Origin: Lutjanus erythropterus
Taxonomy: Eukaryota; Chordata; Actinopteri; Lutjaniformes; Lutjanidae
Reading direction: 5' to 3'
DNA length: 64,000 nt
Assembly (NCBI GenBank): GCA_020091685.1
Contig: CM034606.1
Location: 16,709,695 to 16,773,694 of the forward strand
The notes under the pieces were generated by a model that made no database searches, had not been told where the DNA came from, and was given only the letters and a program-made list of their open reading frames with translations. This document shows, one piece after another, positions 141 through 54,753 of the stretch. The position numbers were made by a program, and so were the translations under genes. Position 1 is the first letter of the stretch. Every line of letters begins with the position of its first letter.

Positions 141-20210
<20,070 letters not shown>

Positions 20211-21660: not shown

Positions 21661-21664
21661 AGTG

Positions 21665-24375: not shown

Positions 24376-24378
24376 TTA

Positions 24379-25254: not shown

Positions 25255-25260
25255 TTTATT
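25255..25260 (-). terminator. VSTM4 polyadenylation signal
   Basis: Minus-strand AATAAA about 430 bp beyond the VSTM4 stop codon, giving a 3' UTR of about 0.45 kb. It is the first canonical hexamer after the stop that I noticed. Confidence 0.5.
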
Positions 25261-28600: not shown

Positions 28601-30898
28601 GTCTGCCCCCTCAGACTCTAATGCCTCCAGCGTGTTTGGAATTTGAGAAGAAACTCAAACTTCAGACAGAAACACGAGGACTGGGAATTGAACCAGACTA
28701 CTTCATGCTGTGAGGTGACACCAATAACCACTGAGCCACTGCGTCTCCTCTTCACTACATGATTAGACTGGGAAAACATCTGATCTTTGTGGATCAAATC
28801 AGACTAAAGTTCACTGCTTAAGACGTGTTTACAGCCTGAAGCGGTGATTTGTGGTGATTTTTTTGCTTTTCTCAAATTTTTGCTCTTACAAACACCAAAC
28901 ATCCTGAGAAAAAAAATACTCTTTGATTAAAACTTTTCATAACTCATGTCTTCACTGAGGCTTTACCTTTGGCTGGTATGTGTGGTGGTGGCTCCGCAGG
29001 TAGTTTAGGTGGTGTTACAGTTACTCTTCTGTCAGGTTTCTGTCTTATGTCTTTCCTTTGGGCTCTCGGGGAGGAACTGGATGAACTGCTGGAGCTGGTT
29101 ACAGTCTCTCCTGAGCTGCATGGAACAGAAGAGAGGTAAAAAAAAAAGTTTCAATTACAGCTGCAACTAATGATTTTTTATTTTGTGTATTAACGGTCCA
29201 GTGTGTAGGATTTGGGGGAATTTATTGGCATAATATGGCAGAAATGGAGTATAATATTCATTAGTATGTTTTCATTAGTGTATAATCCCCTGAAAATAAG
29301 AATTGATGTGTTTTTGTTACTGTAGAAAGAGCTGTTTATATCTACAGTGGGTGCAGGTCATTGTCCACAGAGACCGCCATGTTACTGCCAAGTTTTTATA
29401 GTAGCCCAGACTGGACAAACCAAGCACTGGCTTTAGATATGGCCTTTCATGTTTTTGCATTTTTCACAAATTTCACAGTTACCGAAGGCTCTCCTACTCA
29501 ACTTGTGGCCTGTGGGCGAAATCTTCCCCTGCCAGGGAGCTGGGTGCCCTTCTGACCATTTTTAATTAACATTAAAAAATAAATTGCTCCACACTGGTTT
29601 TTCCAGGAAGGGGATCTGCCCCCTGTTCCCCCGTAACTTCTGCCTATGGTAATTTTTGCATACAGCTGCCCTGTGCAGGGTTGCTGTGGTCAGATGTGCT
29701 ACTTGGCAAAGATGATTGAGGATAGCAAATGTGGAAAGGCTGAAAATGAAAATTCAATGAACAATGGACAGATGGATTTACTTGTAGTTTGCCACATTAT
29801 ACCAATCCTAAACCACTGCATTTAATTTGTCAAATGACAATTGTTGTATGCCAAGTTGCTATCAGGTCCAATCACAAGTCAAACCACGTTAGCTTTAGTC
29901 CAGTGATCCCGCCTTTACACCATAATTTTAGCTGTCAAATATCATTATTATTAATATTTGTTTATACACTGGCCCCTTGCCTCTCTTACAAAAGTAGCCT
30001 CCCGGCAAAGCAAGTTGAGTTTTCCTGTCCCACATGTCGGAAAGGGGAGAATGAGACAAGGTCTCAGGGTGCAAGCTGCTCGATGCTACTAAAATCCTAC
30101 AGACTGGTCCTTTAAAATGTTTCAAAACAAACCAAAAAAAAAAGACCATAACAAGTTCTCAGACCCCAACTTGACATTGCTTCCCTGTTGACAGTGATAC
30201 AAAACAGAGAAAAGTAGGAAATCCTTGCATTTTAGATAGAACAAGCAAATATTTGGCAATAATTTAAACAGTATGATTATCAAAACTGTTGATTAATTTC
30301 TATTGCACTTTACTTTACAGTACACTAAGAGGACACAACAAGCTGTATCTTGTGTTAAATTAGACAAAAACTAGAAATACAGTATGTCCTTCATTAGACA
30401 GCCATATTAGTCTGTCTTAGAGGGTAACTGGGACACAATACAACAAACCTGTACTGTAAACTGAAGTGTATTGTTTCCCACTGTCACCCATAGACAAAAC
30501 ATTCCTCTACCCCTATAATTTTGTCATTTATTAAGTAGATAATCTTGTTTTTAATGTGAAAGTAGCAGAGATGGGATTTTATTTTAGTTTACAGTACAGA
30601 TCTGTTATAATGTGTCCCATATTACCCTCTAAAATAATAATAAAGGTCTAACAGTGGTAAACAATACACTCACTACAGACTGAAGCCTAATCAGGGACTA
30701 ATGAATTGTCTATTATCAATAGTTTTTGTCTAATTTGACACAAAGTATGGCTGTTTATGTCTTATTAGTGTGGTATAAAATAAAGTGCAACCCAATTTTC
30801 TGTTAATTGACTGATCGATTTGAAAATATATTGTGTCAGCACTCATTTTACTGCATAACCGTACCTGCTTTCTGGACACTTGACCAGAAGGTAACTGT
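25687..30898 (-). CDS. vstm4: VSTM4 exons 5-8: cytoplasmic tail with ITIM-like and ITSM-like motifs
   Basis: Exons 30898-30865, 29115-28967, 27655-27588 and 25842-25687 encode DSYLLVKCPESS, a serine run, a basic proline-rich stretch, and the terminal part with LTYAEL (fits the ITIM pattern) and TVYAQI (fits TxYxx[VI]). The two tyrosines are 30 residues apart, with a Pro/Ser linker between them. Confidence 0.92.
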
Positions 30899-33800
30899 CT
30901 GTGGAGAAAAGTGGCAGAAAAAAAATCATGTTGACTTGACTTGAAGCATTGTTTTAATAGGAAAACTGAAACATGTGACGTATTTTGTGGGAAAACTAAT
31001 GATGGGCTTACCTTTGAGCCTGTGTCTTCTGTAAAAGTACTGGCAAGTGAGAACCAGAGTGAACAGGAAGATGGACAGCAGGCCCAGTGAGCAAATCAGC
31101 ACAGCGCACAGATACACATCTACAAAACAAACACACAGAACAGTGACGTTATCAAAGCCACACTTGCAAATAGTGAGGTGAAAAAGAAGCAGGACTAGAG
31201 ATAAAAACAGTACCTGCAAATAAACGCCACAGTCCCTCACTGGTCCCGTCCTCATGAGTTAAGTGCACTGGAAAAAAAGGTTAAAAAAAAACTTGTTAAA
31301 AAGTCAGCAAAGACAGAACGTTGAGGGTTGGAAACCGTGCCCAGACTAACCCAATCCAACAGACAGCCCCAGTGGTTTCCAGAAATATCAAAACTGCTGT
31401 CATGAAGGGAGATTCTGTTGCTGCAACAGCCAAACCCACCACTCACACACACACACACGCCGCTACTCTGCATCCCCACTTCCTTTACTTGGTCGCTCAG
31501 TTGTTTAATGTGTCAGTTTTCTTTATTAGTGTGAAAAGAGGTGGAATAAGGAAGTTGTTGTCAGCGTGTGCCAGTGAATGATGGGTTGTGTATAGGTCAG
31601 GGGTATTTAGCGAGAGGTTGAGGAGAGTGAACAGAGGCTGTGTACATAAATTACTTAGTCTCTGTTCCCCGTAATGAGTTTTTAATATGTCTTTTAAACA
31701 CAGGTTGATAAACATATTAATAAGAAATGATAAGATATTAACTCTAATTGACTTCTAGCCTGTTTCCAGACTGATGAACTGCCTGCAGAATCGTGAAATG
31801 CGGTCGTGGACGTTCAGTCCGAATATCACTTTAATTAATGTCAGGGACCAACACACTGGCTTTGTTTTCTGACCAAAGTTGAAAAACTGCATCAGGCAGG
31901 AGAAGATACACTTTAGATGACATAATACAAGTGATGCGTTTTTCAAGATACTGCTGCCCACGTTTGATTAGATCTTTTGGCCGAGTTTTTATGTGTCTGC
32001 ACCGACGACAGCCATGACCAGAGGCATTATGTTTTGGGGTTGTCCATTCATCCGTCATCCACATCGTATCAAATCAATGCTTGTGTTGATTGGCTGCAAG
32101 TAAAACCGCTTTTTCTCTGCCTGTGTTCAGAAAGGATTGAAAGCAACTCAGGGATGAACTGCTTAGAAATTGGAGGTCAAAGGTCAAACAAAACATGTTT
32201 TTGGTCATAACACAAGAATTCATAAGCTTATTATGACAAAGTTTCACACAAATGTCTATTAAGATAAAATGATGACAGTTTATGTCCAAAAGGTCAAGGG
32301 TCAACTTCACTGTGACATCATAATATTCACCCCTTTACTTTACAATAATGCAGAATCTTAAGTTTTAAGGGCCAGTCTGTGATGTTTTATTGGACTGCAT
32401 TAAATTGCGTGCCGTTCCTGTTACTTTGTCCACCCACTGTTTACCACCCAATGAACAGTAATGACAGGCAAAGAAAAGACGTGTAAAGTCGACACATACT
32501 CATCTGACGAGGTGACAGGCGACATTTAACAGGCATCTTTTAACAATGTGAGCAGTTAAACAGTCGATGTATGTAAACCACAGATCTGACCTTCACACTG
32601 TGGTTAACCACATGCTGAAACTCACATCTGATCAGTGCACGCAACCCCAGGTTAACAGGTTGGCTGTTTGGGAGCTATTACAGTAAACACTCTCTGCAGA
32701 TGTTACAAACTGCGGCGTACCCAGCGGAGACAAATATATGCCCCCCCAAAAAAAAAGTGCACAAAGCCGAAAAACACCACATACAAATTTAGACTCATCT
32801 GCTTTCCTCCAGTCCAGCTGTGAAGACAAGACACAGAAAACTGAAACTGACAGGGTTTGAAATCTGAAGCCATACAGCAGTGTCTAGTAACATTCGATTT
32901 AACTGTTCAGATTGTCTGCTCATTTTACCGGTTCAGAAAAGCAGCTGAAATCCCTCAACCTGAAGGTCTGAGTTTGGGAGTTTACAGATGTGGAAGAGGG
33001 CAAACTGTCTGTGCAAAATCTTTTGCATAAGAGTAGTTAAATTATCTCAGTGGGGTGTAGACTTTGTTCTAAGTTCTGCAGACTGAAATCTGCAGACTGA
33101 GGGGATCCCCAGATTAAAGCTACAACTTATTTTTCCCTTTGTTTACCCTCATAATGTCAGCTCTTGTGTTTCTGGTTCTGTGGTCAATGCATGTCGGAGA
33201 TGCCTGAGGTTGTGTGGCTTCCTTAGCGGGACATTGCCCTGAATATAGGGCAACAGGGCGTTGTCTGATGGCTCCGTCTGAGTCAAACCTCCGCGCTTTT
33301 CTGCCATAAAACTAGTGAAAGGTAAACTTGCAACAGTGTCAGGTGTCGCTGCACCTATAGCGCGATACACCAGCTGTCTTAAATTTCTACTGAACCCTTT
33401 TATCTTGTACATCCCACAGTGACAGGCGGTTTCCCTGACAATCAATCCAATACAACCAGATAAAGGATTGTACCGTCTTTATTACTGCATGTGATTTAAA
33501 TTGGTTCTTAACTTGTTTTGTTTATTGTAGGTACGTATTGGCACAGACTAAATAAGTTCCACTGCAGCTGAATTCTCCAGTAAATTTTCTCCTAAGGCTT
33601 GCATAAAAGTAAACTCAGAGTGCTGACGTCATGTATTTCAGGGTGTTTGAACGTAGCCAGCTCAGCAACACTCTACCTTTTACTCCTCACACTCACACAC
33701 ACACACACACCCACACACACACAGACAGAGTGATATTGTTGAGTGTGGTTTGGCTGTGTGAGCTCATTGTTTTGAGATGGAAATGCCAGAGGATTGGGGT

Positions 33801-36800
33801 CACACTCAGACATACATAGGCGCAACGTACAGCCAGAGTCAGAATATACATCTTAAACATTTCTATTGGCCCTTTGTACTTAAATGAAAACCTTTTGCTC
33901 CTCTTTGTTTGTTTTTTTCCACTGCCAGATAACATGGACAGCATGTCTCAGCTGAACGTGCGCTGCGGCTGTGAGGGAATTCCTTGGAAAGGAATATTCC
34001 ATGGAAAACATTTTCAGAGTAATTACACCAGAAATCCCCTTTGTGTTTGATGCTCTCTTGTCAGTGACGAAGGTTGTGCAAAAAGTACAAAAAAGTGGAG
34101 AGGTAAAATGCTTTCTTCATTTGTTTTTGAAGGCCAAATGTTGTACAGCACAATGCACAGTTCTGCTGTTTTGCCAAGTGACTGTGAGAGATCAATTTGT
34201 TTTTGTTTACTCGCCTGCCTAAATCAAGTGAAGATGAAATAAACTGTAAAAAATCCTGAAATATAGTTTAACGGTCTAACTCCAGAATTTAATACTACGT
34301 AGTTCTCAGTGTTTTAACATGTTTTCACCATCTATGTTCTAACACGTATAATGTGTTTAGAAGAAAAACTTCCCATTTCCTTTACAAGGACTTTAAACTA
34401 TTTGTTAATCAAAACCTCAAGGTTTTCAGTGGCTTCTTTTGGGATTGTTGCAGCCTAAAATGCCTGATTTTACAGCAGCTTTTTAGGAAAAAAAATGTGA
34501 TGCATGTTGAGACTGTAAGCTCAAAATTATTAACATATAAAAGTGCACAGAGGATTGATGAATGTCAATAAAAATGACAAACCCTGTGTTCTTTTCAGTG
34601 TCTGTGACAAAAAAAAGTTTGTAAATAATAAGACATTGAGTCAGCTTATTGAAACATACATGTATTTCATTTGCGTGGGGGACTGCTATGATTGGTGGAA
34701 GCCGTGGGAAGCTACAAAATGATTGGTCAAAAGTACAAGGTCATGCAGACTTCACAGGGATTAGTTGAATTTGCATCAGTTGTTGCAATTACAATGTCAC
34801 AGCTTCGTGGAGGGACCAACTCTTGCATTTGGTCCAGCAAAAGGTAAACAAGGCTCTGTAATCTGACTTTCAAATCTGCTAGAAATAGTGATACTTGAAA
34901 ATTTGTCTTAGTTTCACCACCTGATAAACTTTTGGCTCGCCCTACAACAGGGGACATCACCCAAGTCCTTCTAAAGGACACCTAGACAAGAAACATTCTT
35001 GTTGAGATGGGGTTTCGAACCCCTAACCACTTGGCTAACATGCTTAATTTAAACAAAAATATATAGATAAACAGCAAGTCCCAAGCCCTTCATCTTTCAA
35101 CTTTTAACCCATTATCATCCAAAATGAGGCCCTGGATCATTCTACAGACAGATGTGACGTGGTGTGTTGAAGCACAGCTTTAGTTACCTGTCAGCTGGGT
35201 GGTGCTGGTACCATTGGACGATGCTCTCCATGTGTTTCTGTGTTTGCGGATCTCCTGGACTCTGCAGGAGTAGAAACCCTGGTCCGTCCCTGTCACGTTG
35301 AGAATCCACAGTCGGTACACCTCTCCCTCCGTATCCTCAAACAGACGAAACTTTGGCTGGGGGAAACGACGGGTGTAGTTCCCATACAGCTTCATTTTCT
35401 TGATGCCCATCTTCACAATCAGGAGCTGAGGGGACTCGAGTGTAGGAAGAGGAGGAGATGGGGATGGAGACGGGGGAGGAGGCGCGGGAGTGGGAGCAGC
35501 TAGGGGAGAGAAGAACCAGCGAAGGATGAGGACACTGCCGCTCCTCTTCCTCTGAGAGACCAGGCAGGAGATTGTTAGGTTGTCTTTCTCTGTTACCATG
35601 ACAACAGGTCCAGGGGTCACGGTCACATTCAGGGCGTGACATACCTCTGTTGACAAAGGCACAAACAGTACAGATGGTCATTTTTTGCACAGACATATCT
35701 CATACTCTACTGAATATAAGTTCATTTTTTGTATAGCCCTAGGTGTGCTTTTTGCATTATGTATTGTTTTGGCAAGTATGTTATGCGTATATTGTTTTAT
35801 GACAGAATAAAATCAAACAAAACCATAAAACTTATTCATTTTCAAACATAAGGACACTCAGAGAGTGCTATGATCCGGTAGTTTGTGTGACTCCTCCCTG
35901 CTCTTTAAATTAGTAATTAACTTGAGCTGCTAATGTGCCCCACATGGAAAAAATCTTCAGTTCATTTTTGCAAGATGTCTGATTTCCTGCCAATTAAACA
36001 TAATTGTAGCATTTAGACAAAGTACGTTTTTATGCACAGCCACAGTGGCGGTTTGGATTTATGGTGTTAGAGCTCACACTATCACTGGTTCTACTTATAT
36101 ATGTCATTCCATCACAGGATGGGAATTCAATCTGTATTAGCTAAAAGGATTAAACAGGGTGCACCAACAAGGATGCATTTTTAAACCTGAAACATGGTTT
36201 AAAAGTTTAAACTGAAATTTAAAATCTGATCCAGTTTTGAAAAGGTTTAGCTTTTAAAAGGGCTGCCTTTTTGAAATGGATTAAGCGAAATATTCAAATT
36301 CCTCAAAAAAGTTTAGGGAGTTTTATGATGCATCTTTTATTTCTTGCACTCCAGCTGATAATATGCCCAACAAGTTTTTCTAAAAAGGAGAAATTAGAGC
36401 TTCTCTGCCAAGCCATCATAAGTAGGCTAACTAGGCTACCGTACATTTTAGCTAGCTAGCAAACAATATAACTTTTGTGCCACATAATTACAACTGCATA
36501 TCTGCTTGCTAGCATTCCTGGCCCTTTAGGTGACCGGATACTGTGCTGTGCTACGAGAGGTCCCGTGTTCGAATCTAGACAACCCTGGGCTCTTCAGGGT
36601 GGGCTCTAACATTACAGCTCAGATGTTACACTGGTGGCCGCCGTGGGATCGCTCTGGTTGCAGAAATCCTCCCAGTTAAGGCTCCCTCCTGGTGCACATG
36701 GAGGCGCCTTTAGTAAGGCAAGGACAACTGCAACACATAAATACAGCTCCATGTCCGCTTGCTCGAGGGGCCTGATCGGATTCTGTGGCTATCTGCGCTG

Positions 36801-41759: not shown

Positions 41760-44700
41760 TCACCAGTCTGACAGCTCCATAAAGTCCTCCAGTTCGCTCA
41801 TGGTTATTATATCACGGGGCTGATATTGTGAGGGGGCTGAGTTGTCATTTTCACAAACTGAGCTTCCTGCAAGCTGGCTGTTTGTGTCACACTGTGGGAA
41901 CGACTCATATGGGCTATGTGTGTTGTAAGCTGTGTTATATGTTTTGTCTGTATCATTAACTGTGTCCATGTATGGAGTCTTCTCTGGGCTGTAGCGGCGC
42001 CCTTCAGAGTTCTGGCCCATTTCAGGGGCTGGATATCCGTAGCTGTGGCTCTCATTGACAGGCTGTTGGTCCTGGTGGAGAGTCACAGGGGCTGATGAGC
42101 GTTTGATAGCCGCAGGTTGGTAGCCTTGGGGATAACCATGGTAGCCTTGATAAAGCGCATGGGGCTTGCCAGCTGGAGAGTCTTGGGAGAGGGGCTGTTG
42201 TTGCAACTTGCCATGAATTTGGGGTTTGAGCTGAGGTTGTAGGTATGCTTGCTGGGGCTGAGGTCGGGAGGCGCTCTGGGAAGACTCGCGCACATTCAGT
42301 TGAACATACTTTCCCGTCTCAGGGTCAAAGAAAGTCTTTGTCTTCACTTGAACAGGCACATCCACTACAAAATACTGACCAGAGCCGAGGTCTTGCAGCA
42401 CCTTGCGCTGGGTCATTGGGTAGGACTGGGGGTAGCTCGACTCTACATGGTACTGGGTCACTGGAGCTGGGTGTTTGGCATGATGGAGAGTGGGAGAAGA
42501 GGGAACATCAGCAACTGTCTTAGGAGCAGCAGGGTGGGAAGCAGGGCCAGCAGCGTGAGGCGAGGCAACAGGGATAGAAACAGGGGCAGTAGCATGAGGT
42601 GAGGCAGCTGGGAGGGAGACAGGACCAGTGGCATGAGGGGAAGCATAGAAAGAGCTGTGAGAGGACTGGTGTTCTGTGTGGGAAGAAGGCAAGCTAGACC
42701 CCAGAGTTGGAGCATGAGCGAGGGAGACAGGTGGGGAAAAATGAGGGGAAGCCACAGCATAGTGGTTGGAGGAGCGTACCTCAGTGGAGGAGGATGAAGG
42801 AGTACCGGAGACTTCTTGAAGAGGTTTCTCAGTTCCAGCAGGAGTGGCTGCCACAGCTTTGGACAGCTCCTTCTTGATTCTCCGAGTAGCCAACCTTTTC
42901 GCCCTGCGCATGGCTTTCTCACTCTTCGGGGGAACAGCTGGAGGCTTGCCCAAGCGAGACACGTCACTGCTGAAGCTACAGGCTGATTCTGGCCTCTCAT
43001 AGTCATACAGACCACGGACATCTGCCAGGTCTGCTGCACTGGTGGCAAAACTCTCCACATCCTCTGACATGTTGCTGATGACGGAGCGGGAGTCGTCTTC
43101 ATCCAGAGCGATGCTTCTCCTGGAGTAAGGCCTGTAATGTGGAAGAGATGCTGAGTAATCCTGTGATGAAGTTCCTGGCTGAAAAGTCGAGGATTCTTTG
43201 ATCGAAGCTAATCTGTTTAATCCTGAGTCAATACTGCGTCTCATTGTCTCATGCTCCTCTTCTCCTCTGTCTGACCCCATGGGTGAACCCACTCTGAAAT
43301 CCTCTCCAAAGTTCTTATGGAAGCGTGGTCTGACTGACTTGGTGAGAGAGGAACCTCTGTTGGTGTTATCCTTCACCCTGAACATTAAGGGTTTACCTCC
43401 AAAAGCAGGAGAAGAGGTGCTGGAGCGGGGCAGAGATGGAGCTGGAGATGCAGGAGGTCTATAAGGCCTAGTATGGGAGTCCTCAGGTGAGTCAAGGCCT
43501 GTTGGATTGTGTCTTTGGGAAGGTAAAGGGGAGCACAGTTGTCTTTCGTTGGATTTCCTCTCTGATTCTGTTGAGGTGAAGGCATAGTACTGGAGAGCAT
43601 CCATCTTTTGTGCCGCTCTTTTCTGCTCCTCCATCTGAGCCACTCTCTCCTTTTCTCTATAAGCTGCTAACTTTTCCTCTTCTCTCTTTTTAGCCATGAT
43701 CTCATCCTCTCTCTGAGATAACACTTGTTCTTGTGCGACCCTCTTCTCCTCCTCTTTCAGAGCTGCTTGTTTTGCCTCAGCGAGTATGGTCCTGTCTTCT
43801 TTGGCTTGCTTTTCTTCTCTTTGTTTCATGATTGTTTTGACTTTTTGAACAGCTTGGATCTCCTCCTGCTCTCTCTGAGCTCTCATCAATTCTTCTCTTT
43901 TCTGTCTTTCACTCCTCTGCTCTTCAGTCTGGTGCTCTGCTTTCCTCTGCTCCTCTTCTCTCTGTTTTCTTTTCTTTTCATCCTCACTATCATTGAGTAT
44001 CTTCTCCTCAATCTGTTTAGCTCGCCTTTGCTCCTCAATAAGAGCAGCTCTCCTTTGCTGCTCCTTAAACAAAGCAGCTCTCCTTTGCTGCGCCTCTTGA
44101 GCAGCTCTCCTTTGCTGCTCCTCCTGAGCACCTCTCCTTTGCTGTTCCTCCTCTTGAGCAGCTCTCCTTTGTTGCTCCTCTTGAGCAGCTCTCTTTTGCT
44201 GCTCCTCTTGAGCAGCCTTCCTTCGCCGTTCCTCCTCTTGAGCAGCTTTCCTTCGCCGTTCCTCCTCTTGAGCAGCTCTCCTTTGCTGTTGCTCTTGTGC
44301 AGCTCTCCTTTGCTGCTCCTCTTGAGCAGCTTTCTTCCGCTGCTCCTCCTCTTGAGCAGCTCTCCTTTGCTGCTCCTCTTTAGCAGCTCTCCTCCGCTGC
44401 TCCTCCTCTTGAGCAGCTCTCCTTCGCTGCTCCTCCTCTTGAGCAGCTCTCCTTCGCTGCTCCTCCTCTTGAGCAGCCCTCCTTTGCTGCTCCTCTTCAG
44501 CAGCTCTCCTTTGCTCCTCCTCTTGAGCAGCTCTCCTTTGCTGTTGCTCTTGAGCAGCTCTCCTTTGCTGCTCCTCTTGAGCAGCTTTCCTCCGCTGCTC
44601 CTCCTCTTGAGCAGCTCTTCTTTGCTGCTCCTCTTGAGCAGCTCTCCTCTGCTGCTCCTCTTGTGCAGCTCTTCTTTCACTCTCTCTTATCCGTTCTTCC

Positions 44701-47700
44701 TCCTCTCTTAGTTTTGCTCTCCTCTCTTCCTCAATTTTTATTTTTCTCTTCTCCTCACTTTCTTTCATTCTCCTGTCTTCTTCTCTTTGCTTTGCTCTCA
44801 TCTCCTCTTCTTTTTGAGCAGCTCTCTCCTCTTCTATCTGTTTAGCTTTTCTTTCTTCCTCTGCTCTCCTCTCTGCTTCCCTCTGTTTTTCTCGCCTCTC
44901 CTTGATCTTAATGGCTATGGCCTCCCGCTCTCTTGTTCTCCTCTCTTCTTCTCTCTGAGCAGCTCTCCTCTCTTCTTCAGCCAGAGAAGCTCTACTCTCC
45001 TCTATCATGTATTTTATTTTCATGTCTTCTGCTCTTTTCTCCACTTGTTCTTCCTCCAACTGTTTTGCTCTACCCTGCTTTGCTGTGGTTTCTTCATGGT
45101 GAGTTTCAAGCCTTTCTCTCAGGATTTCTGGTCTCTCTTCCCCGGTCTTAGCCAATGCATTTTCAATCTTCTCATCTTTTCTTAGAGGTGTATGTTTGCT
45201 TTTCTCTGTGTTGTGAACTTGCCCCAAAGTGGCATGTAGATTGGAGTTTTTCGGTTGATGAATACTTTGATCTATTTGACAAACTCTTTGGGTATCAGTT
45301 CCAGTCACTTGTTTTTCACTCCCCCTGCTCTTAAGATGAGTTGTTGGAGACTTGTTTCTCTCTCTGAGATGCTGTGCATGTTCTTCCTCATTGTCTAATA
45401 TGTCATCATTGGCTTTGGCTTCTAAAGGGATTTTCTCTTGTCTTTCTTTGTCTCCCAGTTTGAACATCCCAGTCCTTAGGTGTTCTTTCTCCGTAATGGG
45501 AAACACTAAGGGTTTAGGCTCTTTATTAACTTTGGAGCTGACCTCTGTCTTATTTGGCAGACTTTTCTCTTTCACAGAGAGGTCTTGTGGGTCAGCAGTG
45601 AACACTGGTCGTCTGCTATGGCGAGTTTGTATTAGTGGGAAGAACCCTTCCTTTTTGTTGGGTGGGAATTCCTGAATTGGGGTTTCCCGGTCTTCTGAAA
45701 CAATTACTTTTAACCTGGCATAATCTGCTATTGCTGATATCTCAGGTATTGTGGAGGTCCTTTCTTTTGGTTTTGGTTTCACTTCAGGTTTTTCTTTAAC
45801 TGTATTTTCTCTTGATGGGTGTGAATTTCTTGAGCCCTGTCGTTCCCTTGCTGAGAAACTGGACTGGTTCTCTGTGTGCTGTTTTCTGATATGAATAGCT
45901 TGGCCTGCCTCCGTCTTCTCATTTTTATTACTTTTATTACTCTCCGAGGAACCATCACTCTGTTTTGAGACCAGATTAGATTCTGTTTCTCTGCTTTTCC
46001 TTTTCATGTTCTCTTCTTGAACGTTTACTGAACTTGATTCCATTGTTTTCATTTTACTTTGATCCAAAACAAAGACTTCATTTTTCTCTTCATTGTATGA
46101 TTCATTGCTGGTAGCTGATTTGTTTGGTAGTAATCCTGGAAGTTCCCCTCCCTTTGGATGAGCATCTGATGTATCTCCACCTACATTTGCACCACTGTGT
46201 GGTTCATTATTAGTTCCTGCTACCACTTGAAAGTAGTCTCCCTCCACTGGTTGTGTCTTTGATCCACCCACTGATTTCCCATATTTATTAACTTTTTCAG
46301 GCTTTCTGTTTTCATCTTGAGCATTCTCACTAGTTATGTTTATGGTGTTCTGTTGAATGCTGATTTTCAATGAATCAGACAATTGCGCTCCAGATTTGTC
46401 TTCCAAACTCTCCGCCATCTGTTTCTCATTGCTTGGAGGGAAGTCTCTGGCTCTGTCTTCATTGTTAGAAGTGTTCACTTTTTCTTCGTGACTAGATGAT
46501 GCAACTTGTTTGTGCTCAATAGCTGCAGTTACGTCCGAAGGGACAGTTGTGACATGATGTTTTCCCACCATTTTCAGGTTGTCCTTCTCAGTTAGTGCTG
46601 GTACAACTCTGATGGCAATGCTGCCTATATGCACATCAGTATCGTCCTCTTGATTATTTTCTCTAATGTGTGAATCTTGATACTGATGTTTGGCAGAGAT
46701 ATTTATATTTTCATTCTCAGTGAAATGGTTAGAAGAACTGGTTTTGTTGATTGGTTTTGGTGGTGTTGGGTCATGTCTCTTTCTCTCCAGTAGGGGTGCA
46801 TTTCTGCCATCTGCGCTCCTGCTTTCAGATGGATTTATGACTGTTGTCATATCGTCTTTCATTGATGGATGGGTGTCATGTTTTATCACAGTTTCAGCAT
46901 GAACTCGGTTTGAATCATTCATGTAGTTGATTCCTGTGTTCACCATTTTGGCCATGAAATTCTCATTGGTATGTGCAGTTTGCATATTTTCTGGATTTTT
47001 CCCTTTGGTGTGACTCTTCACGTCCTCGTTCCCTGCTCTCTTTGCTGAGTTCTCTTTCAGCATTTTATTTGTGTAGTCTTTGGTTTCTCTTGCTATCATC
47101 TCCTGTTTGCAGACAGGGGGTTGAGTTTCAGCTTTATTTTTAGCCGGTACAGTGGCTGTGAGGGTCACACCTTTTTCAGTCAGTGATTCTTGGACTTGAG
47201 TTTCTCTTTGGGGTCTTGCATTTGCAGAAGAACTCATCATTTTCACATTGACATTCTCAGACATATTGTTCTGTCTTGTCTCTAGGGTTGATGTTTCTTG
47301 CACATTTTCAGGATGATTGTTTATGCCAATTTTGTTGAGATCTTCCTTCACAGTTGGATGAGTGTTTTGTGGAGCTCCTTTGTCCTTCACCTCTACTTTG
47401 CCAGCTTCCTTTGAAAATGTATTTCTGTTATTTACTTCTAGATCTGAGCTGGGATGACATTTATCTGAATTACTGCATTCTTGCTCCTTTGCATTTATTT
47501 GGTTTTGTGTGCTGTTCACTGATGGGTTTCTTTCTCGTACAGTTACCATTATTCCAGTGATCTGCAAGCTGTCATCAGCCACAGGGGTCTCGTTCTGACC
47601 AAAGACAAGCTTCAGTGAAGGTGTTGAGTCCTCATCAACTGCTTCTTGTTGACTCTCAGCCTTCTCTGTTTTCACAGATTTGGAGCTTTCACCTCCAACC

Positions 47701-50700
47701 CGAGCTGTAGCTTGATTGTCTATCTTCTTGTTGAGATGGTCAGTGTTTACAGCAGGATTGTCTTTAAGACCCTCTTTCTGTTTTGCAGAGATTTCTCCGT
47801 GATTTGATTCCTGTTTTGCTTGCTTGTTCTTGGGTGCCTGCTCTTTGCTTGGCATTGGTGGCTTAACTCCTGACTGATTCTCCTTCTTTGCACTTTCTGC
47901 CAAACTCTCATCTGTGCTCATTGTATAGCTTCCTGTCTGTTTTGCTTCTTTGGGTGGTTTTGGCACATTGTCATTGCTCTTCATTGGTTCTTTGGGAACT
48001 TGTTTTTGTAAATGGTCTACTAACTGACTGGTGGTCGCTGCAGACTTCACTGGGGGTGAAACAGATTTGACTGGTTCCATCTGTTTTCCTGAAGGCTCCA
48101 TCTGGTGCTTTGGTGTAGTATTACTGGACATTGTGCTTTCATGCTTTTTAGGCACTTCGTGTGATGGTGGCCTCTGTCGTATATTAATATTCTGGCTACC
48201 TGCTAATTGCTTGGCAGAAGTTTTGGACATAAAACCATCTCGTATAGCAAATCCCTTCTCTTTTATTGCCGAAATTTCCTTTTCAGCATGAGCTTTAATC
48301 TTGGAAGTCAGAATCTCCTGCTTTGTTTGAGCTCTCTCTTTGTGAGACAATGCTCTGGGAGGGGTAAAATGTTGATCTTTACCAGGGCCTACACTGTGCT
48401 CATTTGACTTGGGTTTTCTTTCCAGGGCGAGCGGTTTGACAAAATCAGAATCTCTTTGCTGTGAAACATCAGTGTGTTTCACAGGGTTGTATTTTTCCAA
48501 CTTATCTAAAGTTCCATCCTTCACTTTATCAGCAGCAGTGCCAATATTTGCTCTATCTACATTTGTAGGTAAGTAATCAGCGCCAGATAATTTGAATTCT
48601 TTGGATGACTCGCTGTAAACATAGGGACTTTCTGTCACCTCATCTGGCATCTCATCCTTAATTTCTGTGTTAGATGTTGCAAATATGCTTGGAGGGCTAT
48701 ATTTGTCTTTTGATATCTCATTATATGTTGTCTTAACTTTATCAAGAGGTAAAGCTGATGTTTCATTAGGATTATTTGAAGAAATGTTTTCTGCAGTTGA
48801 TGATTTGTTTCTGTCTGTTGAATCTGTATCTGTAAAACCATATTTCTCTCTAAGACGCTCATATTCAGTAATCCCTCTATTAGCTGGATCTATACTTTGA
48901 CTTTTGACAACAACTGAGTCTTCCCTCTGTTGATGCGTCTGCATTGCCTGTTCCTGATCTTTGTGCTCTTCATTTTTAGTGATATTTACTTTTAAAGGTT
49001 CATCTTTCTTAACCCCATCTTCTTTTGCAAGAATTGTATTTCTAACTTTCTCTTTTTGCTCTCCCCTCATTTTCTCCTTTATTTTAGCGAGTTCTGCTTT
49101 AGCTTTGGCTAGCTCTGTCTTAACTTGTTCAACTTTATCTGGCTCACTTTTGACCTGTTGTGTTATTTTTGCTGTGGGTTTTGTCAACTTTTCCTGCATA
49201 TTCTCTGTTTTTGTTAGCTCTGCTTCGGGTAGCTTCACTTTGGTTTGTTCCAACTTTGCCAACTGTGCTTCTTTTGCTTTAGCTTGTTGCTCTTTTAACT
49301 GCTCCAATTTAGCCTGTTCTGCTTTGGCTTGTTGCTCTTTAATTTGCTCTAGTTTAGCTTGTTCAGCTTTAGCTTGTTGCTCCTTTATCTGCTCTAGTTT
49401 AGCTTGTTGCTCTTTCATCTGTTGTAGTCTAGCTTGTTCTGCTTTAGCTTGTTGCTCTAGTCTAGCTTGTTCTGCTTTAGCTTGTTGCTCTTTCATCTGC
49501 TCTAGTCTAGTTTGTTCCGCTTTAGCTTGTTGCTCTAGTCTAGCTTGTTCTGCTTTAACTTGTTGCTCTTTCATCTGCTCTTGTGTAGCTTGTTCCACTT
49601 TGGCTTGTTGCTCTTTCATCTGCTCTAGTCTAGCTTGTTCCGCTTTAGCTTGTTGCTCTTTTATCTGTTCTAGTTTACCTTGTTGCTCTCTTGTCTGCTC
49701 TAGTATAGCTTGTTCTGCCTTAGCTTGTTGCTCTTTCATCTGCTCTAGTCTAGCTTGTTCCGCTTTAACTTGTTGCTCTAGTCTAGCTTGTTCCGCTTTA
49801 GCTTGTTGCTCTTTCATCTGCTCTAGTCTAGCGTGTTCCGCTTTAGCTTGTTGTTCTTTCATCTTCTCTAGTCTAGCTTGTTCTGTTTTAGCTTGTTGCT
49901 CTTTTATCTGCTCTTGTTTAGCTTGTTCTGCTTTTCTGCGCTCTGATTCAGCCTGCTCTGCTTTAATCTTTTCTGTTCTGATTTGTTCTGCCTCTACCCG
50001 CTCTCTTTCAGCTTGTTCTGCTCTTAACCGTTCTTCCTCAAGTTGCTCTGCTGTGACCTTTTCTCTTCTGGCCTGTTCAGTTTCACCTTGCCCTGTCTGC
50101 ACAGTCTTGACCAGTTCAGTTTTTATGTGTTCTTCTTTTAGCCTCTCTGCTTCAGCTTGTTCTGCTGTGACCTGCTCACCCTGCACCTCTCTCATCTGTT
50201 TGGCTCCTGCTTCCTCAGTAATATTTTCTGGCTCTTCTGTTACCTTCTGTATTCTGGTTTGCTCTGCCCTTGTTTGTTCCTCTTTTCTCTTATCTTCAAT
50301 ATGTTCATCTTTAGCCTGGTTTACACTCTCAAACTCTTTTAGTTCTGCTTTGGCCTGTTCTGCTTTGACTTTCTCCGAACCAGTCTGCCCTGCTAAAATT
50401 AACCTAGCCGACTCCACTTTGGGCTGCTCCACTTGAGCCCAGTGCTGAGCCTTTGCCAGCTCTGCTTGGGCGTGTTGTGCTTTTACATGATCTGCCACGG
50501 CCTGTTCAGCCTTGACCTCAACAAGCTGTCTCTGTTCTACTCGTTTTTCCAGTGTGGGGGCAGATGCATTGTCTGGGTTAGATAATAATTTTTTCTGCAT
50601 ATTAGGTTCAAACTGTGATTTTGCTTCTATTAGCTGGAGACTTTGCATTTCCTGCCCTTTGGGCATTGGTTTTCCCTGACCTGTTTCTTGTGTGAGCATA

Positions 50701-53546
50701 TCATTCGAATAAAAGGTGTGTTGGTTTCTGTATTCTTGATCAGAATATATGTTATTATTCTGTGTCAAATAATTATCTTTCGTTTTGTTTTCCTTATAAT
50801 GTCCATAATACTTTTGAAATGCATATTTGTCCTTAAATGCTCCAGGTTGCTGTTGTCCATAACAGGCAGGATTTTCAACTGCGTCATTACTAAATTGAGC
50901 ATATTGTGGCAGTTGGTCTGAAATGTTAGGATTGACCCACCCAGTCTGTTTGTGAGAAGATGTTCCAACACCAAAACTCTCCCTCAACTCTATTTTCTCC
51001 GGTTCTTTATTTATAATTTGCTGATTTTCTCCTCTGTATTTGTCTCTCGGTAAAGTTAGTTCCTCCTTTATCACAGCTGCTCTTGGGTAAGCCTGTGCAT
51101 GTTGGTCTTTTTCTATTAAGGCAGTTATCTCTTGTTTCCATGGAGAGACAGCTGTTTTCAGACTGAGATTTTCTGTGTCTTGACTGTTTGTCTGTCTCCA
51201 CCTATCCTGTGTGGACACATTACTGTAGTCATGTTTGTTGTCACTGAGCTGCTGATATCTATCCACCTCTGAGAATTCCCTTCCCACTGTTTCATTAAAA
51301 TGTTGCTCAGTATTTGCCTTACTTATTAAATATTGTCTGGTTTGATTGTCAGCATTTAGTCCTGGTGCCCCTGTAGCCGAATAAGATGGTTTATACCTGT
51401 TTACATCTCCTCCCAGAGTTTCTACGTTATCCATCATGCCTTGCTTATAGGGAGTAAATGACGATAAGTCTTCATAGAGATTCTGTCCATTAGCCAGCTG
51501 ATTGCCAGCGTAATTTTCAGGTAAGAAGCCAGTGAACCCAGAGTGATGAACCATCCCACCTTGCATCTGAGCTGCCTGGTAATCACCTGAATTGTACTCT
51601 GAATATTGTCCTGTATGTGCTGTTGCAGGCTGAGAATTAAGTATTAATCCGGAGTTATGATATGGGTTTACATATTGATGTGAAGCAGCATTTGTCCTGC
51701 TGGCTTCCTCTGCCTGGTGATATTGGATGTCTTGATCTGGAAAGTCAGGGATATCTATCACAGTGTCTCTAGGCTCCTGGATAGGGGGCTGTTTGTTTCT
51801 CTCCTGTGTCTCCAAGCCTTTAAATTTGGGAGGGCTGTATGTGCTTTTTACTCTCTTCCTGTTGTCTTTGAGATTGAAAAGCAGGCTTGTGGCTCTGGAT
51901 TTGTAACTGGACATCCGAACATCAGGAGTGGCTCCCCGGCTTTCTGCTCGCACTGGAGGATGTTCCACAGGTTGAGGGGAAACTGCATACTGGTGGATCT
52001 CTGATGTCTCTATTTCTTGATGTGCATGGACTGAAGGTGTGAGCAGCTGGCTGATGTTGAACGGAGTTGTGCTTGTGTTATTGCTGACAACATTTGATGC
52101 AACTGTATTTGCGTAGTTGGGAATTAAGTTATCGTTGCTATAAAGTATTTCCTGTTGATTTACTGTCATACTGGTTGTGATATTTTGCTCTGTCATCATT
52201 TTGATTTTTTGCTGGAGGGCTTTGACGGAGCTGATGGTGTCCTGGACTCGTCGAGACATCTCAATGGTAGGTGATGCAGTTGATGGGCGCTGGGATGGGA
52301 GCCTGTTAGTTCCCAGGCTCTGCGCCCGCCTCCTGTGGGGATAATGACCTGCCAACTCTGACTCACACCGTTTCTCCACGGGCAAAGCTTTCTGCAGCAT
52401 TGTGGATGTTGAGGTGGAGCGTGATGGAGTGGGAGGAACCACAGGCGCCATGTTCTTCCTAGGGTGTCTGATACCCCTCTCCTCGAACCTATAAGGACCC
52501 TGTGGTTGTGCCTCCAGTGAAAGCTCTTTGTACATGGGTGTCTCATACCATTTAGGGAACTCTGAGCTGTGCATAAACCCTGAGACTTCTCCTTGTTGGA
52601 AGGGAAACCTGTTATGGTCCCTCCATACCTTGAAGGGACTAAACTCACTGTGTATAAAGAAGTTAGAGTTACAGTTGACCTGCGCGGACATGCTGTGTTT
52701 ACTGTGGGAAGATCTCATAAAAGAAGATGCAGAGTTCATGTGGGCCATTGCTGCAACTTCAGAGGAGTAGAAGTTGGCGTCTCGGGATGAGAATGGGCCA
52801 GCTGTGGGGAAATGACCACTGTTAAAGTTTTGCTGGTATGATGTGGAGAATTCAGAGAGTTCCTTTTGGATGCTCATCAGAGCGGACTTGTCCCAGCTTG
52901 TCTCATCATTCCACTCTCTGAGGTTACTGTCCATTACTGCCCCATCCCTGTGTCCCTCAGAGTTAAAAGCTCGGATGAGAGAGGAAACTCTGGATCGACT
53001 TCTGCGTTGCTGCAAGCTCAACTCTGTGGCTCCATTGCTATGGAAGGACAGCTGTTCTTGCCTCAGAGAGTCCTCCTGTTGAGAGGTTTCCACAAAGGAG
53101 TGCTGGAATGTGGCAGAAACCCTCCCCTGTGTCCTTTCCCCATAAACCTCCCACTGTGGATCTCTCTGGATCTCAGCCCCATACATCCCTCCATGTATCC
53201 AGTCCTGTCCGTACTGCTGCACCCTGAGGCTGAAGCTCTCATGTGCAGCTCTCTTGAGTTCCTCCCTCTCTCTTTCTTCTCTGTCTCTGTCCTGTCCACT
53301 GTGGCCGAAGGCCAGCTGTCTGTCTCTCTGAGAGCAGGGTGAAGATGAACAGAGGTCTGAGTCATTATAAACAGCCTCATCTCCAATGCAGAGACTCCTG
53401 AACGCTCGATCCGTCAGATTGCTAACCTCACGGTCAGTCTCATCCAGAAAGGACCCACCGCTGGAGGTGTCACTGTAGCCTCCATCACTGTGTTTTCGAT
53501 GCCCGCCACTCTTTCGGCCTGAGCGGCGCTTCTCAACTGAGGTCAT
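41760..53546 (-). CDS. cefip: C10orf71/CEFIP orthologue (cardiac-enriched FHL2-interacting protein), 3,928 residues in one exon
   Basis: A single 11.8-kb open frame. The start is fixed by an in-frame TGA nine bases upstream (53556-53558), and A lies at -3. The N-terminus carries DETDREVSNLTDRAFRSLCI (residues 35-54), a block I recognise from C10orf71. Near the C-terminus, about residues 3722-3752, lies a conserved segment (FVVDVPVQVKTKTFFDPETG). The rest is disordered, with two expanded charged arrays: a Lys/Glu/Gln/Ala block (about 1000-1495) and an Arg/Glu/Gln/Ala block (about 2820-3250). The last 600 residues are Ser/Pro-rich. Human CEFIP (about 1,435 residues) binds FHL2 at the cardiac Z-disc, influences calcineurin-NFAT signalling and is linked to cardiomyopathy. 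Neighbouring VSTM4 and WDFY4 support orthology. Function in this fish is inferred. Confidence 0.88.
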   Translation of the reverse strand: MTSVEKRRSGRKSGGHRKHSDGGYSDTSSGGSFLDETDREVSNLTDRAFRSLCIGDEAVYNDSDLCSSSPCSQRDRQLAFGHSGQDRDREEREREELKRAAHESFSLRVQQYGQDWIHGGMYGAEIQRDPQWEVYGERTQGRVSATFQHSFVETSQQEDSLRQEQLSFHSNGATELSLQQRRSRSRVSSLIRAFNSEGHRDGAVMDSNLREWNDETSWDKSALMSIQKELSEFSTSYQQNFNSGHFPTAGPFSSRDANFYSSEVAAMAHMNSASSFMRSSHSKHSMSAQVNCNSNFFIHSEFSPFKVWRDHNRFPFQQGEVSGFMHSSEFPKWYETPMYKELSLEAQPQGPYRFEERGIRHPRKNMAPVVPPTPSRSTSTSTMLQKALPVEKRCESELAGHYPHRRRAQSLGTNRLPSQRPSTASPTIEMSRRVQDTISSVKALQQKIKMMTEQNITTSMTVNQQEILYSNDNLIPNYANTVASNVVSNNTSTTPFNISQLLTPSVHAHQEIETSEIHQYAVSPQPVEHPPVRAESRGATPDVRMSSYKSRATSLLFNLKDNRKRVKSTYSPPKFKGLETQERNKQPPIQEPRDTVIDIPDFPDQDIQYHQAEEASRTNAASHQYVNPYHNSGLILNSQPATAHTGQYSEYNSGDYQAAQMQGGMVHHSGFTGFLPENYAGNQLANGQNLYEDLSSFTPYKQGMMDNVETLGGDVNRYKPSYSATGAPGLNADNQTRQYLISKANTEQHFNETVGREFSEVDRYQQLSDNKHDYSNVSTQDRWRQTNSQDTENLSLKTAVSPWKQEITALIEKDQHAQAYPRAAVIKEELTLPRDKYRGENQQIINKEPEKIELRESFGVGTSSHKQTGWVNPNISDQLPQYAQFSNDAVENPACYGQQQPGAFKDKYAFQKYYGHYKENKTKDNYLTQNNNIYSDQEYRNQHTFYSNDMLTQETGQGKPMPKGQEMQSLQLIEAKSQFEPNMQKKLLSNPDNASAPTLEKRVEQRQLVEVKAEQAVADHVKAQHAQAELAKAQHWAQVEQPKVESARLILAGQTGSEKVKAEQAKAELKEFESVNQAKDEHIEDKRKEEQTRAEQTRIQKVTEEPENITEEAGAKQMREVQGEQVTAEQAEAERLKEEHIKTELVKTVQTGQGETEQARREKVTAEQLEEERLRAEQAERERVEAEQIRTEKIKAEQAESERRKAEQAKQEQIKEQQAKTEQARLEKMKEQQAKAEHARLEQMKEQQAKAEQARLEQQVKAEQARLEQMKEQQAKAEQAILEQTREQQGKLEQIKEQQAKAEQARLEQMKEQQAKVEQATQEQMKEQQVKAEQARLEQQAKAEQTRLEQMKEQQAKAEQARLEQQAKAEQARLQQMKEQQAKLEQIKEQQAKAEQAKLEQIKEQQAKAEQAKLEQLKEQQAKAKEAQLAKLEQTKVKLPEAELTKTENMQEKLTKPTAKITQQVKSEPDKVEQVKTELAKAKAELAKIKEKMRGEQKEKVRNTILAKEDGVKKDEPLKVNITKNEEHKDQEQAMQTHQQREDSVVVKSQSIDPANRGITEYERLREKYGFTDTDSTDRNKSSTAENISSNNPNETSALPLDKVKTTYNEISKDKYSPPSIFATSNTEIKDEMPDEVTESPYVYSESSKEFKLSGADYLPTNVDRANIGTAADKVKDGTLDKLEKYNPVKHTDVSQQRDSDFVKPLALERKPKSNEHSVGPGKDQHFTPPRALSHKERAQTKQEILTSKIKAHAEKEISAIKEKGFAIRDGFMSKTSAKQLAGSQNINIRQRPPSHEVPKKHESTMSSNTTPKHQMEPSGKQMEPVKSVSPPVKSAATTSQLVDHLQKQVPKEPMKSNDNVPKPPKEAKQTGSYTMSTDESLAESAKKENQSGVKPPMPSKEQAPKNKQAKQESNHGEISAKQKEGLKDNPAVNTDHLNKKIDNQATARVGGESSKSVKTEKAESQQEAVDEDSTPSLKLVFGQNETPVADDSLQITGIMVTVRERNPSVNSTQNQINAKEQECSNSDKCHPSSDLEVNNRNTFSKEAGKVEVKDKGAPQNTHPTVKEDLNKIGINNHPENVQETSTLETRQNNMSENVNVKMMSSSANARPQRETQVQESLTEKGVTLTATVPAKNKAETQPPVCKQEMIARETKDYTNKMLKENSAKRAGNEDVKSHTKGKNPENMQTAHTNENFMAKMVNTGINYMNDSNRVHAETVIKHDTHPSMKDDMTTVINPSESRSADGRNAPLLERKRHDPTPPKPINKTSSSNHFTENENINISAKHQYQDSHIRENNQEDDTDVHIGSIAIRVVPALTEKDNLKMVGKHHVTTVPSDVTAAIEHKQVASSSHEEKVNTSNNEDRARDFPPSNEKQMAESLEDKSGAQLSDSLKISIQQNTINITSENAQDENRKPEKVNKYGKSVGGSKTQPVEGDYFQVVAGTNNEPHSGANVGGDTSDAHPKGGELPGLLPNKSATSNESYNEEKNEVFVLDQSKMKTMESSSVNVQEENMKRKSRETESNLVSKQSDGSSESNKSNKNEKTEAGQAIHIRKQHTENQSSFSARERQGSRNSHPSRENTVKEKPEVKPKPKERTSTIPEISAIADYARLKVIVSEDRETPIQEFPPNKKEGFFPLIQTRHSRRPVFTADPQDLSVKEKSLPNKTEVSSKVNKEPKPLVFPITEKEHLRTGMFKLGDKERQEKIPLEAKANDDILDNEEEHAQHLRERNKSPTTHLKSRGSEKQVTGTDTQRVCQIDQSIHQPKNSNLHATLGQVHNTEKSKHTPLRKDEKIENALAKTGEERPEILRERLETHHEETTAKQGRAKQLEEEQVEKRAEDMKIKYMIEESRASLAEEERRAAQREEERRTREREAIAIKIKERREKQREAERRAEEERKAKQIEEERAAQKEEEMRAKQREEDRRMKESEEKRKIKIEEERRAKLREEEERIRESERRAAQEEQQRRAAQEEQQRRAAQEEEQRRKAAQEEQQRRAAQEQQQRRAAQEEEQRRAAEEEQQRRAAQEEEQRRRAAQEEEQRRRAAQEEEQRRRAAKEEQQRRAAQEEEQRKKAAQEEQQRRAAQEQQQRRAAQEEERRRKAAQEEERRRKAAQEEQQKRAAQEEQQRRAAQEEEQQRRGAQEEQQRRAAQEAQQRRAALFKEQQRRAALIEEQRRAKQIEEKILNDSEDEKKRKQREEEQRKAEHQTEEQRSERQKREELMRAQREQEEIQAVQKVKTIMKQREEKQAKEDRTILAEAKQAALKEEEKRVAQEQVLSQREDEIMAKKREEEKLAAYREKERVAQMEEQKRAAQKMDALQYYAFTSTESERKSNERQLCSPLPSQRHNPTGLDSPEDSHTRPYRPPASPAPSLPRSSTSSPAFGGKPLMFRVKDNTNRGSSLTKSVRPRFHKNFGEDFRVGSPMGSDRGEEEHETMRRSIDSGLNRLASIKESSTFQPGTSSQDYSASLPHYRPYSRRSIALDEDDSRSVISNMSEDVESFATSAADLADVRGLYDYERPESACSFSSDVSRLGKPPAVPPKSEKAMRRAKRLATRRIKKELSKAVAATPAGTEKPLQEVSGTPSSSSTEVRSSNHYAVASPHFSPPVSLAHAPTLGSSLPSSHTEHQSSHSSFYASPHATGPVSLPAASPHATAPVSIPVASPHAAGPASHPAAPKTVADVPSSPTLHHAKHPAPVTQYHVESSYPQSYPMTQRKVLQDLGSGQYFVVDVPVQVKTKTFFDPETGKYVQLNVRESSQSASRPQPQQAYLQPQLKPQIHGKLQQQPLSQDSPAGKPHALYQGYHGYPQGYQPAAIKRSSAPVTLHQDQQPVNESHSYGYPAPEMGQNSEGRRYSPEKTPYMDTVNDTDKTYNTAYNTHSPYESFPQCDTNSQLAGSSVCENDNSAPSQYQPRDIITMSELEDFMELSDW
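42530..42670 (-). repeat. short coding repeat ASPHATGPVSLP in CEFIP
   Basis: Four imperfect units of about 12 residues (ASPHATGPVSLPA, ASPHATAPVSIPV, ASPHAAGPASHPA, with a leading ASPHFSPPVSLAH further upstream) in the Pro/Ser-rich region before the conserved C-terminal segment. Confidence 0.75.
44020..44690 (-). repeat. coding tandem repeat 2 in CEFIP (RRAAQEEEQ type, about 24 units)
   Basis: About 24 consecutive 9- or 10-residue units of the form RRAAQEEEQ, with variants RRKAAQEEQQ and RRAAQEQQQ. The DNA period is 27 or 30 bp (plus strand cctcttgagcagctctcctt). The flanks (about 43630-45060) are also Arg/Glu-rich with irregular EERRAKQ(R/I)EE repeats. The units are similar enough for copy number to change by slippage or unequal exchange. 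Confidence 0.92.
49170..50550 (-). repeat. coding tandem repeat 1 in CEFIP (KAEQARLEQMKEQQ type)
   Basis: Codes for units of about 15 residues (LEQMKEQQAKAEQAR) mixed with 11-residue units (LEQQAKAEQAR), with a looser flank of (x)AEQ(A/x)(K/R) repeats on the N-terminal side. The units differ by one 4-residue insertion, so both remain compatible with a continuous helix. The DNA shows the same period (33 or 45 bp), with recurring agcttgttgctctttcatct on the plus strand. Confidence 0.9.
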
Positions 53547-53760: not shown

Positions 53761-54753
53761 CTAGAAGAGAAGAGAACCAAGAATTAGCCTGGACCTCACT
53801 GGCACTCACATAACCATTCATCTTAACAGAAACTGTTTTATATGTTTGCATGATATATGTGATGCACTACAACCTCGGGTCTCGTTTATAAAATAGACTT
53901 ATGATAAGTTTTGATCTTAAAAACCACACAAAGTCTGAACTTGACTTTAATGATTATTCTGCTCGTTATGCCAGAATATCACAGTTTGTGACTTATATGT
54001 GTTTAAGCCTGTGGTGAACTTTGCATTAGCTTATGAGCAATGTGATAAGAATTATCAATTAAAGGTGTGAGGAATTAATAGCAACACAATCCCAAGTAAT
54101 GCTTTTGGCTTTGTTTGTCACCCCACAACTACTAGTCCACTGAACAATATGTGTTGCCTGGCTTCAATCTTCTCTACCATCACCGTGATCTCGTCTTCCT
54201 GTCTTTCAGTCCATGGCTTAATCCTGACTAAACCCTTCTTTGTGCTGCATCAATGTAAGAGGAAATCACTAATTGTAAGGTAGGTATTATCACAGGTCAC
54301 AGTCACAAATTCCCATCTTAGATCCTGCATAAACAAAGTTTTTATGAATTAAACCTCACCACGCTGTCAGAAATTATCTTAAGACTAAGCTCAAGAACAA
54401 ATCTAGGACCATTTTTATAAATGAGGCCCCTTGACTCAAAACCTAAGCTAAACACAGTGTTTTCTCTCATGTGAGATCATTTCTAACTCTCTTGTTCTGG
54501 TGTTTAATTTAAGATAGTTGGCCTTGATAAGAAGCTTTTTTTTTCTCTTTGCATTGAGCAGCAATGTACTGTATGTGGTTCTGAAAACAGCTCTGTAAAT
54601 CCTTCTACTCGATCACTATGACCTTCAGAGACATGTTGTGAATAAAACTACACTGTTGCTAGGCACAGTAAAGACAGCCTCACGTGAGTTATTTTGGGAA
54701 AGCAAGACACATCCATGCAAACTTAGATGGCCACACACAGATATATTCACAGA

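Follow-up and report, generated by a model that had tools for sequence, protein, structure and literature searches.

A 3,928-codon CEFIP/C10orf71-type gene in Lutjanus erythropterus, one of two duplicates and a candidate actin-anchored tether

What role a CEFIP (C10orf71)-type protein of 3,928 residues might play in a fish, when the human protein has about 1,435, is the question raised by a single open reading frame (ORF) of Lutjanus erythropterus, designated here as the long copy. The ORF is located on the minus strand of a 64,000-nucleotide stretch of contig CM034606.1 (assembly GCA_020091685.1, positions 16,709,695 to 16,773,694), referred to below as the window, and differs from mammalian CEFIP also in its long charged blocks and its duplicated locus. 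The explanation that we favour, at slightly better than even confidence, is that the long copy is one of two CEFIP duplicates retained in a teleost-like genome, and that its one coding exon would give rise to a very long Z-disc/actin scaffold acting as a long tether or strut.

Reading frame and gene identity

Read from position 53546 to 41760, the minus strand opens with an ATG and continues for 3,928 codons to a stop, with a calculated protein mass of 446 kDa and an isoelectric point of 6.8. The remaining five frames over this span contain 153 to 305 stops each, and the probability of 3,928 stop-free codons given the base composition is ~10^-96. A codon-usage score was trained on the DUF4585 genes of C20, C3 and C23 (described below), with window positions 18001-34000 as background, and ranked the sense frame top in 14 of 14 bins (the final bin being short). 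The ORF is not a product of chance. No MAG|GTRAGT donor was found within the ORF. Stops occur in frame immediately 5' of the ATG, and the pyrimidine tract and AG situated upstream, together with these stops, fit an intron in the 5' untranslated region (UTR) followed by one coding exon. The long copy is thus consistent with the single coding exon of a CEFIP-type gene. An earlier note on this DNA, made by a model from the letters alone, had read, with no strand given, 3,928 codons without a stop or needed intron and a protein of about 440 kDa, and both statements agree with these results.

Close to its C-terminus, the long copy was shown to match DUF4585 (PF15232; 80.4 bits against a cut-off of 27, E=1e-22). 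Leucine-rich-repeat, BEACH/WD40 and immunoglobulin-like genes are located in the same window (Table 1), which we read as LRRC18, WDFY4 and VSTM4, the genes at the sides of C10orf71 in human. The human CEFIP gene combines DUF4585 with an LRRC18-WDFY4-VSTM4 neighbourhood, and a neighbourhood of this kind is found here. Because DUF4585, these neighbours and an actin motif agreeing at three of its four anchors occur together, the sequence supports a CEFIP/C10orf71-type gene at this position, and the orthologue proposed in the earlier note is borne out to that extent. Similar to the long copy, mammalian C10orf71 is encoded by one exon (according to the available part of PMC11178530) and the F-actin motif of mammalian CEFIP belongs to the class seen here (available part of PMC13364712). 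It is very improbable that the frame is instead expressed as shorter products through internal splicing or promoters, given the lack of a strong donor, the sense coding signal in every bin and the one-exon organization of the mammalian counterpart (PMC11178530).

A duplicate on C20 and related DUF4585 genes

A DUF4585 profile search covering the fish's own genome (937.6 Mb; ~24 chromosomes, judged from 13 sampled contigs, with C24 = 19.4 Mb and C25 = 0.01 Mb) yielded matches over the cut-off at six places, each in an open frame, and a seventh below the cut-off. The open frames comprise 1,419 (C3), 2,734 (C8), 1,523 (C23), 3,931 (C16, the long copy), 2,136 (C20) and 507 (C11) codons; as read, the proteins are of 1,419 (C3), 1,497 (C23), 2,726 (C8), 507 (C11) and, counted from its Met, 2,105 (C20) amino acids. 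The DUF4585 core of the C20 gene (7.312-7.319 Mb; extracted locus L013 2698-9012) exhibits 76% identity to the window copy, compared with 41-52% for the remaining genes. Furthermore, LRRC18-like pieces on C20 (7.243-7.245 Mb) ranked second and third among 75 matches, while a VSTM4-like exon (7.286 Mb) was the sole other match in the genome.

By its sequence and neighbours, the 2,105-residue C20 gene is the duplicate of the long copy: LRRC18- and VSTM4-like genes accompany both, and both ends of the proteins align (residues 33-72 of the long copy at 77.5% identity, 217-588 at 32%, 3384-3560 at 31% and 3707-3753 at 79%). The duplicate differs in its middle of 1,034 residues, in a longest Pro/Gly-free run of 67, in the replacement of VSSLIRAFN by MSSFLKALS, and in its reversed orientation relative to the VSTM4-like gene. 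The joint duplication of three genes and the presence of two further DUF4585 pairs, recognized by eye, fit the teleost genome duplication.

The CEFIP-type gene and the VSTM4-like exon point in the same direction on C16 and in opposite directions on C20, indicative of a local inversion of one copy; judged by the human orientation, the giant C16 copy would be the inverted one. The C20 LRRC18-like copy (7243155-7244577) consists of two pieces with a TGA within one, representing either an intron or a decaying duplicate.

Four conserved-block patterns occur in identical order in C3, C23 and C8, and without the first block in C11; the second-block pattern is unmatched in C16 and C20, and the block was located there by eye. 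We take C3 and C23 to be C4orf54-like, and C8 and C11 to be PROB1-like. Although their blocks are collinear with those of the long copy (except for the first in C11), these four genes lack, by eye, the actin-motif anchors at the second block. The C11 gene (L014 4526-6046), a 507-codon frame without the first family block and with a His/Glu/Gln repeat, may be interrupted by an intron or be in decay. C10orf71 is described in the available part of PMC11178530 as having no homology to other proteins; contrary to that statement, it belongs with other DUF4585 genes having collinear blocks. A single-sequence model of DUF4585 showed four strands, with block-mean pLDDT (predicted local distance difference test) values of 80-94 over residues 21-60 and 67 overall. 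Five of the six DUF4585 members match Pfam OCRE below its cut-off (best E 6.6e-4), the long copy scoring 13.6 bits against the 24.7 required, and no solved relative was found.

Location of the extra length and constraint on the repeat units

The long middle holds 1,761 of the 1,823 residues by which the two duplicates differ (2,795 versus 1,034 amino acids), a comparison within one genome that implies no direction of change. No homology was detected between the two middles: none of six segments (repeat cores excluded) outscored the top one of 60 shuffles, and the best BLAST E was 1.0. Two charged blocks account for 799 of the 2,795 middle residues, leaving ~2,000 outside, and Tandem Repeats Finder reported no array in most of the remaining spacer. 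The earlier note had attributed the additional length largely to two charged repeat blocks and long spacers; both blocks are real and, relative to the duplicate, the length does lie in the middle, but the blocks make up the smaller part of this middle, the rest being mostly array-free spacer. A third short in-frame tandem array, comprising 3.1 copies of 39 bp with ASPHATGPVSLPA-like repeats, was observed in the C-terminal part (window positions 42526-42645).

The ratio of nonsynonymous to synonymous differences (pN/pS) among the 13 nine-residue units of block 2 was 0.20 in the sense frame, compared with 2.10 and 1.83 when the other two frames of that strand were read; comparison of the first nine residues across the full set of 22 block 2 units gave 0.18. 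For the eight fifteen-residue units of block 1 (its three 11-residue and two 25-residue units being left out), the sense value was 0.36 and those of the wrong sense frames were 0.83 and 0.75. Changes between repeat units are thus mostly synonymous, which argues, short of proof, for a translated and constrained sense frame. Long frames are also present on the plus strand opposite the repeat blocks, at 48961-50436 (491 codons) and 43725-44711 (328 codons), and neither contains a Pfam family.

These findings bear on the possibility that the middle is mostly neutral padding, in which slippage and relaxed constraint after gene duplication would have lengthened a tolerant linker, conferring no new function. 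The lack of detected homology between the two middles, unit lengths that are mixed as if generated by slippage, and the ~2,000 residues outside the charged blocks are all compatible with such an origin. It is, however, at odds with the mostly synonymous unit differences (subject to the antisense and ten-residue caveats given below), with an avoidance of Pro and Gly beyond that of shuffled sequences, and with 2,795 middle codons free of stops, and we consider it a substantial possibility, albeit one falling well short of even. The array cores themselves would have grown through tandem duplication of short in-frame units.

Predicted helices in the charged blocks

The 'very long disordered middle' of the earlier note applies to part of the region, which is disorder-like, yet not to residues 1155-1439 (block 1) and 2826-3339 (block 2), which are helix-like, with no Pro and a single Gly each. 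Pro/Gly-free runs of 313, 200, 149 and 135 residues occur in the long copy, as compared with maxima of 106 in 500 shuffles and of 67 in the C20 duplicate. The block 2 array consists of 22 units of nine or ten residues, while the 13 units identified in block 1 are 15, 11 or 25 residues long. Opposite charges at i+3/i+4 exceed the expectation from composition in both blocks (z=10.6 in block 2 and 4.5 in block 1; 1,000 shuffles). The strongest charge periods were 9.45 residues in the block 2 array, 8.25 in its N flank (acidic), 7.8 and 10.65 in its C flank (acidic and basic, respectively) and 5.1 in block 1, with no heptad (3.5-residue) peak in the four stretches examined. Large hydrophobic residues make up 2% of the block 2 array, 14% and 17% of its flanks and 14% of block 1, in which a hydrophobic power of 7.6 was observed at a period of 11/3. 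In the best 49-residue window, a salt-bridge score, calculated with our own simplified scheme and not with the Waggawagga program, reached 0.59 in the long copy and 0.12 in the duplicate. AlphaFold2, run with no alignment, predicted two helices in block 2, spanning residues 2806-3185 (380 residues) and 3191-3337 (147 residues), with a mean pLDDT of 76.

Block 1 could form a coiled coil because its hydrophobic peak lies at 11/3, a period typical of hendecad coils. If block 1 did so, possibly together with the sequences flanking the block 2 array, the protein would be a dimer or cross-linker, not a monomeric strut. The 14% of large hydrophobics and the power at 11/3 in block 1, its units of 11 and 15 residues, and the hydrophobic content of the block 2 flanks point in this direction, whereas the lack of a heptad peak and the near-absence of large hydrophobics from the block 2 array point away from it, making this arrangement rather unlikely overall.

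The charged blocks instead probably form extended single alpha-helices, which we infer for block 2 from its pattern and model. The features described for single alpha-helix domains in the available part of PMC5812594 (high charge, absence of Pro and Gly, opposite charges at i+3/i+4 and no hydrophobic seam) are found in block 2, and less clearly in block 1. Block 2 shares these four properties with the domains of caldesmon, myosins and drebrin, but differs in its Gln-rich units of nine or ten residues.

Actin-binding motif

The consensus VxxLxxxFE describes an actin-filament motif of several proteins, human CEFIP being one of them; a CEFIP peptide from human that carries this class of motif co-sediments with F-actin, and positions P1 and P8 were required for binding in mutated peptides (available part of PMC13364712). 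In the long copy, VSSLIRAFN provides the anchors P1, P4 and P8 (V, L and F), with Asn at P9. V..L...F occurs once in the 3,928 residues, outside the arrays. Shuffling of the first 250 residues gives an expectation of 0.02 occurrences, or of 0.004 when Asn is permitted at P9, a criterion adopted once this Asn had been noticed; over the whole protein, a relaxed pattern gave three matches against 1.3 expected. We take VSSLIRAFN to be the same site as the actin motif of human CEFIP.

The motif region reads RVSSLIRAFNSEG in the long copy and HMSSFLKALSATE in the short C20 copy, in which the motif anchors are absent. The Met at P1 and Leu at P8 of the short copy suggest weak or no actin binding, as both positions were needed in the peptides (PMC13364712). 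The equivalent place in C3 and C23 is ASSL[IL]KNVI, indicating that the actin motif sits on an older family block.

Proposed role of the long copy

In the favoured explanation, the N-terminal Lifeact-like motif would hold actin filaments and the conserved C-terminal part with DUF4585 other Z-disc partners, while the charged blocks between these ends would be extended single alpha-helices joined by flexible spacer. At a helical rise of 0.15 nm per residue, the two block 2 helices would measure ~57 and 22 nm, and block 1 would reach at most ~43 nm, so that the long copy would act as a long tether or strut and not as a compact adaptor. Such an actin-anchored tether or strut is plausible from the sequence. 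C10orf71 shows co-localisation with markers of the Z-disc and of myofibres in cells of mouse and human origin, and its knockout leads to weak contraction with sarcomeres that are slightly shorter yet ordered (available part of PMC11178530). Binding of FHL2, a Z-disc location and muscle expression are further traits of CEFIP.

Several observations weigh against this explanation. The ten-residue units (eight of nine used, the divergent last unit being excluded) gave pN/pS values of 0.30 in frame 0 and 0.32 in frame 2. For the antisense frame whose third codon positions coincide with those of the sense frame, the values were 0.43 in block 2 and 0.26, below the sense value, in block 1. Third codon positions common with the sense frame offer the simplest account of the latter; the 491-codon antisense frame opposite block 1 lies in this same frame. 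The salt-bridge score of 0.59 is far under the 1.25-1.36 of designed helices. The AlphaFold2 model lends weak support, because helices come readily from one charged repetitive sequence, and pLDDT dips to 54-62 within the long helix. The strict pattern V..L...F[ED] is unmatched in the 3,928 residues, and V..L...F is expected 0.2 times by chance over the whole protein. Finally, mouse knockout cells show no sarcomere disorder in the available part of PMC11178530. The unmatched strict motif and the antisense control as low as the sense value slightly lower our confidence in the explanation, and likewise in the speculative extension given below.

The earlier note had suggested a molecular ruler or strut in fish muscle; a ruler would set the length of the Z-disc or of thin filaments. 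The summed helix of ~120 nm would be within the range of sarcomere sub-structures. However, the protein contains a single actin-motif core, with none in the arrays, and hence not the many filament-binding repeats of a nebulin-like protein (this motif class alone was searched); unit lengths are mixed in both arrays (9/10 and 11/15/25); and knockout sarcomeres in mouse are ordered and only slightly shorter (available part of PMC11178530). A ruler is thus highly unlikely, and the state of the knockout sarcomeres favours the long actin-anchored tether over it. A more speculative and on balance improbable extension is that the two CEFIP copies diverged following the genome duplication of fish: one would have retained its F-actin anchor and turned, through single alpha-helix growth, into an actin-tethered strut of 50-120 nm, and the other would have lost the anchor. 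An adaptor would in this way have been divided into a long tether with a mechanical role and a short scaffold for signalling.

Features of the window

The features identified are listed in Table 1. In addition, broken minus-strand frames at 22000-22924 resemble, by eye, a Tc1-type transposase remnant.

Table 1. Positions of features in the 64,000-nucleotide window
Feature	Position	Strand	Basis or remark
Single-exon ORF, CEFIP/C10orf71-type (long copy), 3,928 aa	41760..53546	-	ORF listing, Pfam, coding signal
Acceptor-like AG behind pyrimidine tract, putative 5'UTR	53761..53762	-	214 nt upstream of ATG
N-terminal family block (aa 33-72, ..DREVSNLTDRAFRSLC..), 77.5% identical to C20 duplicate	53331..53450	-	Alignment
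Lifeact/ITPKA-like motif VSSLIRAFN (aa 187-195), Asn at last position	52962..52988	-	Pattern search
N-terminal conserved region (aa 217-588), contains ..LKDNRKRVKSTYSPPKF..	51783..52898	-	Alignment
Long middle (aa 589-3383, 2,795 aa; duplicate 1,034 aa, no homology detected)	43398..51782	-	Alignment
Charged block 1 (aa 1155-1439, a single Gly); 11-, 15- and 25-residue repeats, e.g. KAEQARLEQMKEQQA	49230..50084	-	
Charged block 2 (aa 2826-3339, a single Gly); extended helix predicted	43530..45071	-	
27/30-bp tandem array in block 2, 22 units of AAQEEEQRR type	44042..44677	-	Tandem Repeats Finder
C-terminal conserved region (aa 3384-3560, ..LMFRVKDNT..)	42867..43397	-	Alignment
DUF4585 (aa 3708-3771), four predicted beta strands	42234..42425	-	Pfam and single-sequence model
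Leucine-rich-repeat gene (LRRC18-like)	783-1778	-	Domain match
BEACH exon (WDFY4-like)	11166-11528		Domain match
WD40 matches (WDFY4-like)	15681-16133; weak one 16607-16993		Domain match
Immunoglobulin-like exon (VSTM4-like)	35183-35677	-	Scores below Pfam cut-offs

Significance

Loss of C10orf71 leads to dilated cardiomyopathy in people and mice (available part of PMC11178530), yet its mode of action is unclear. The two fish duplicates are alike at both ends and different in their middle and in the actin motif, so that the parts of the protein are separated between them and their roles could be tested in fish muscle. The long copy is a real, unusual variant of a known gene, the mechanical role of which is testable.
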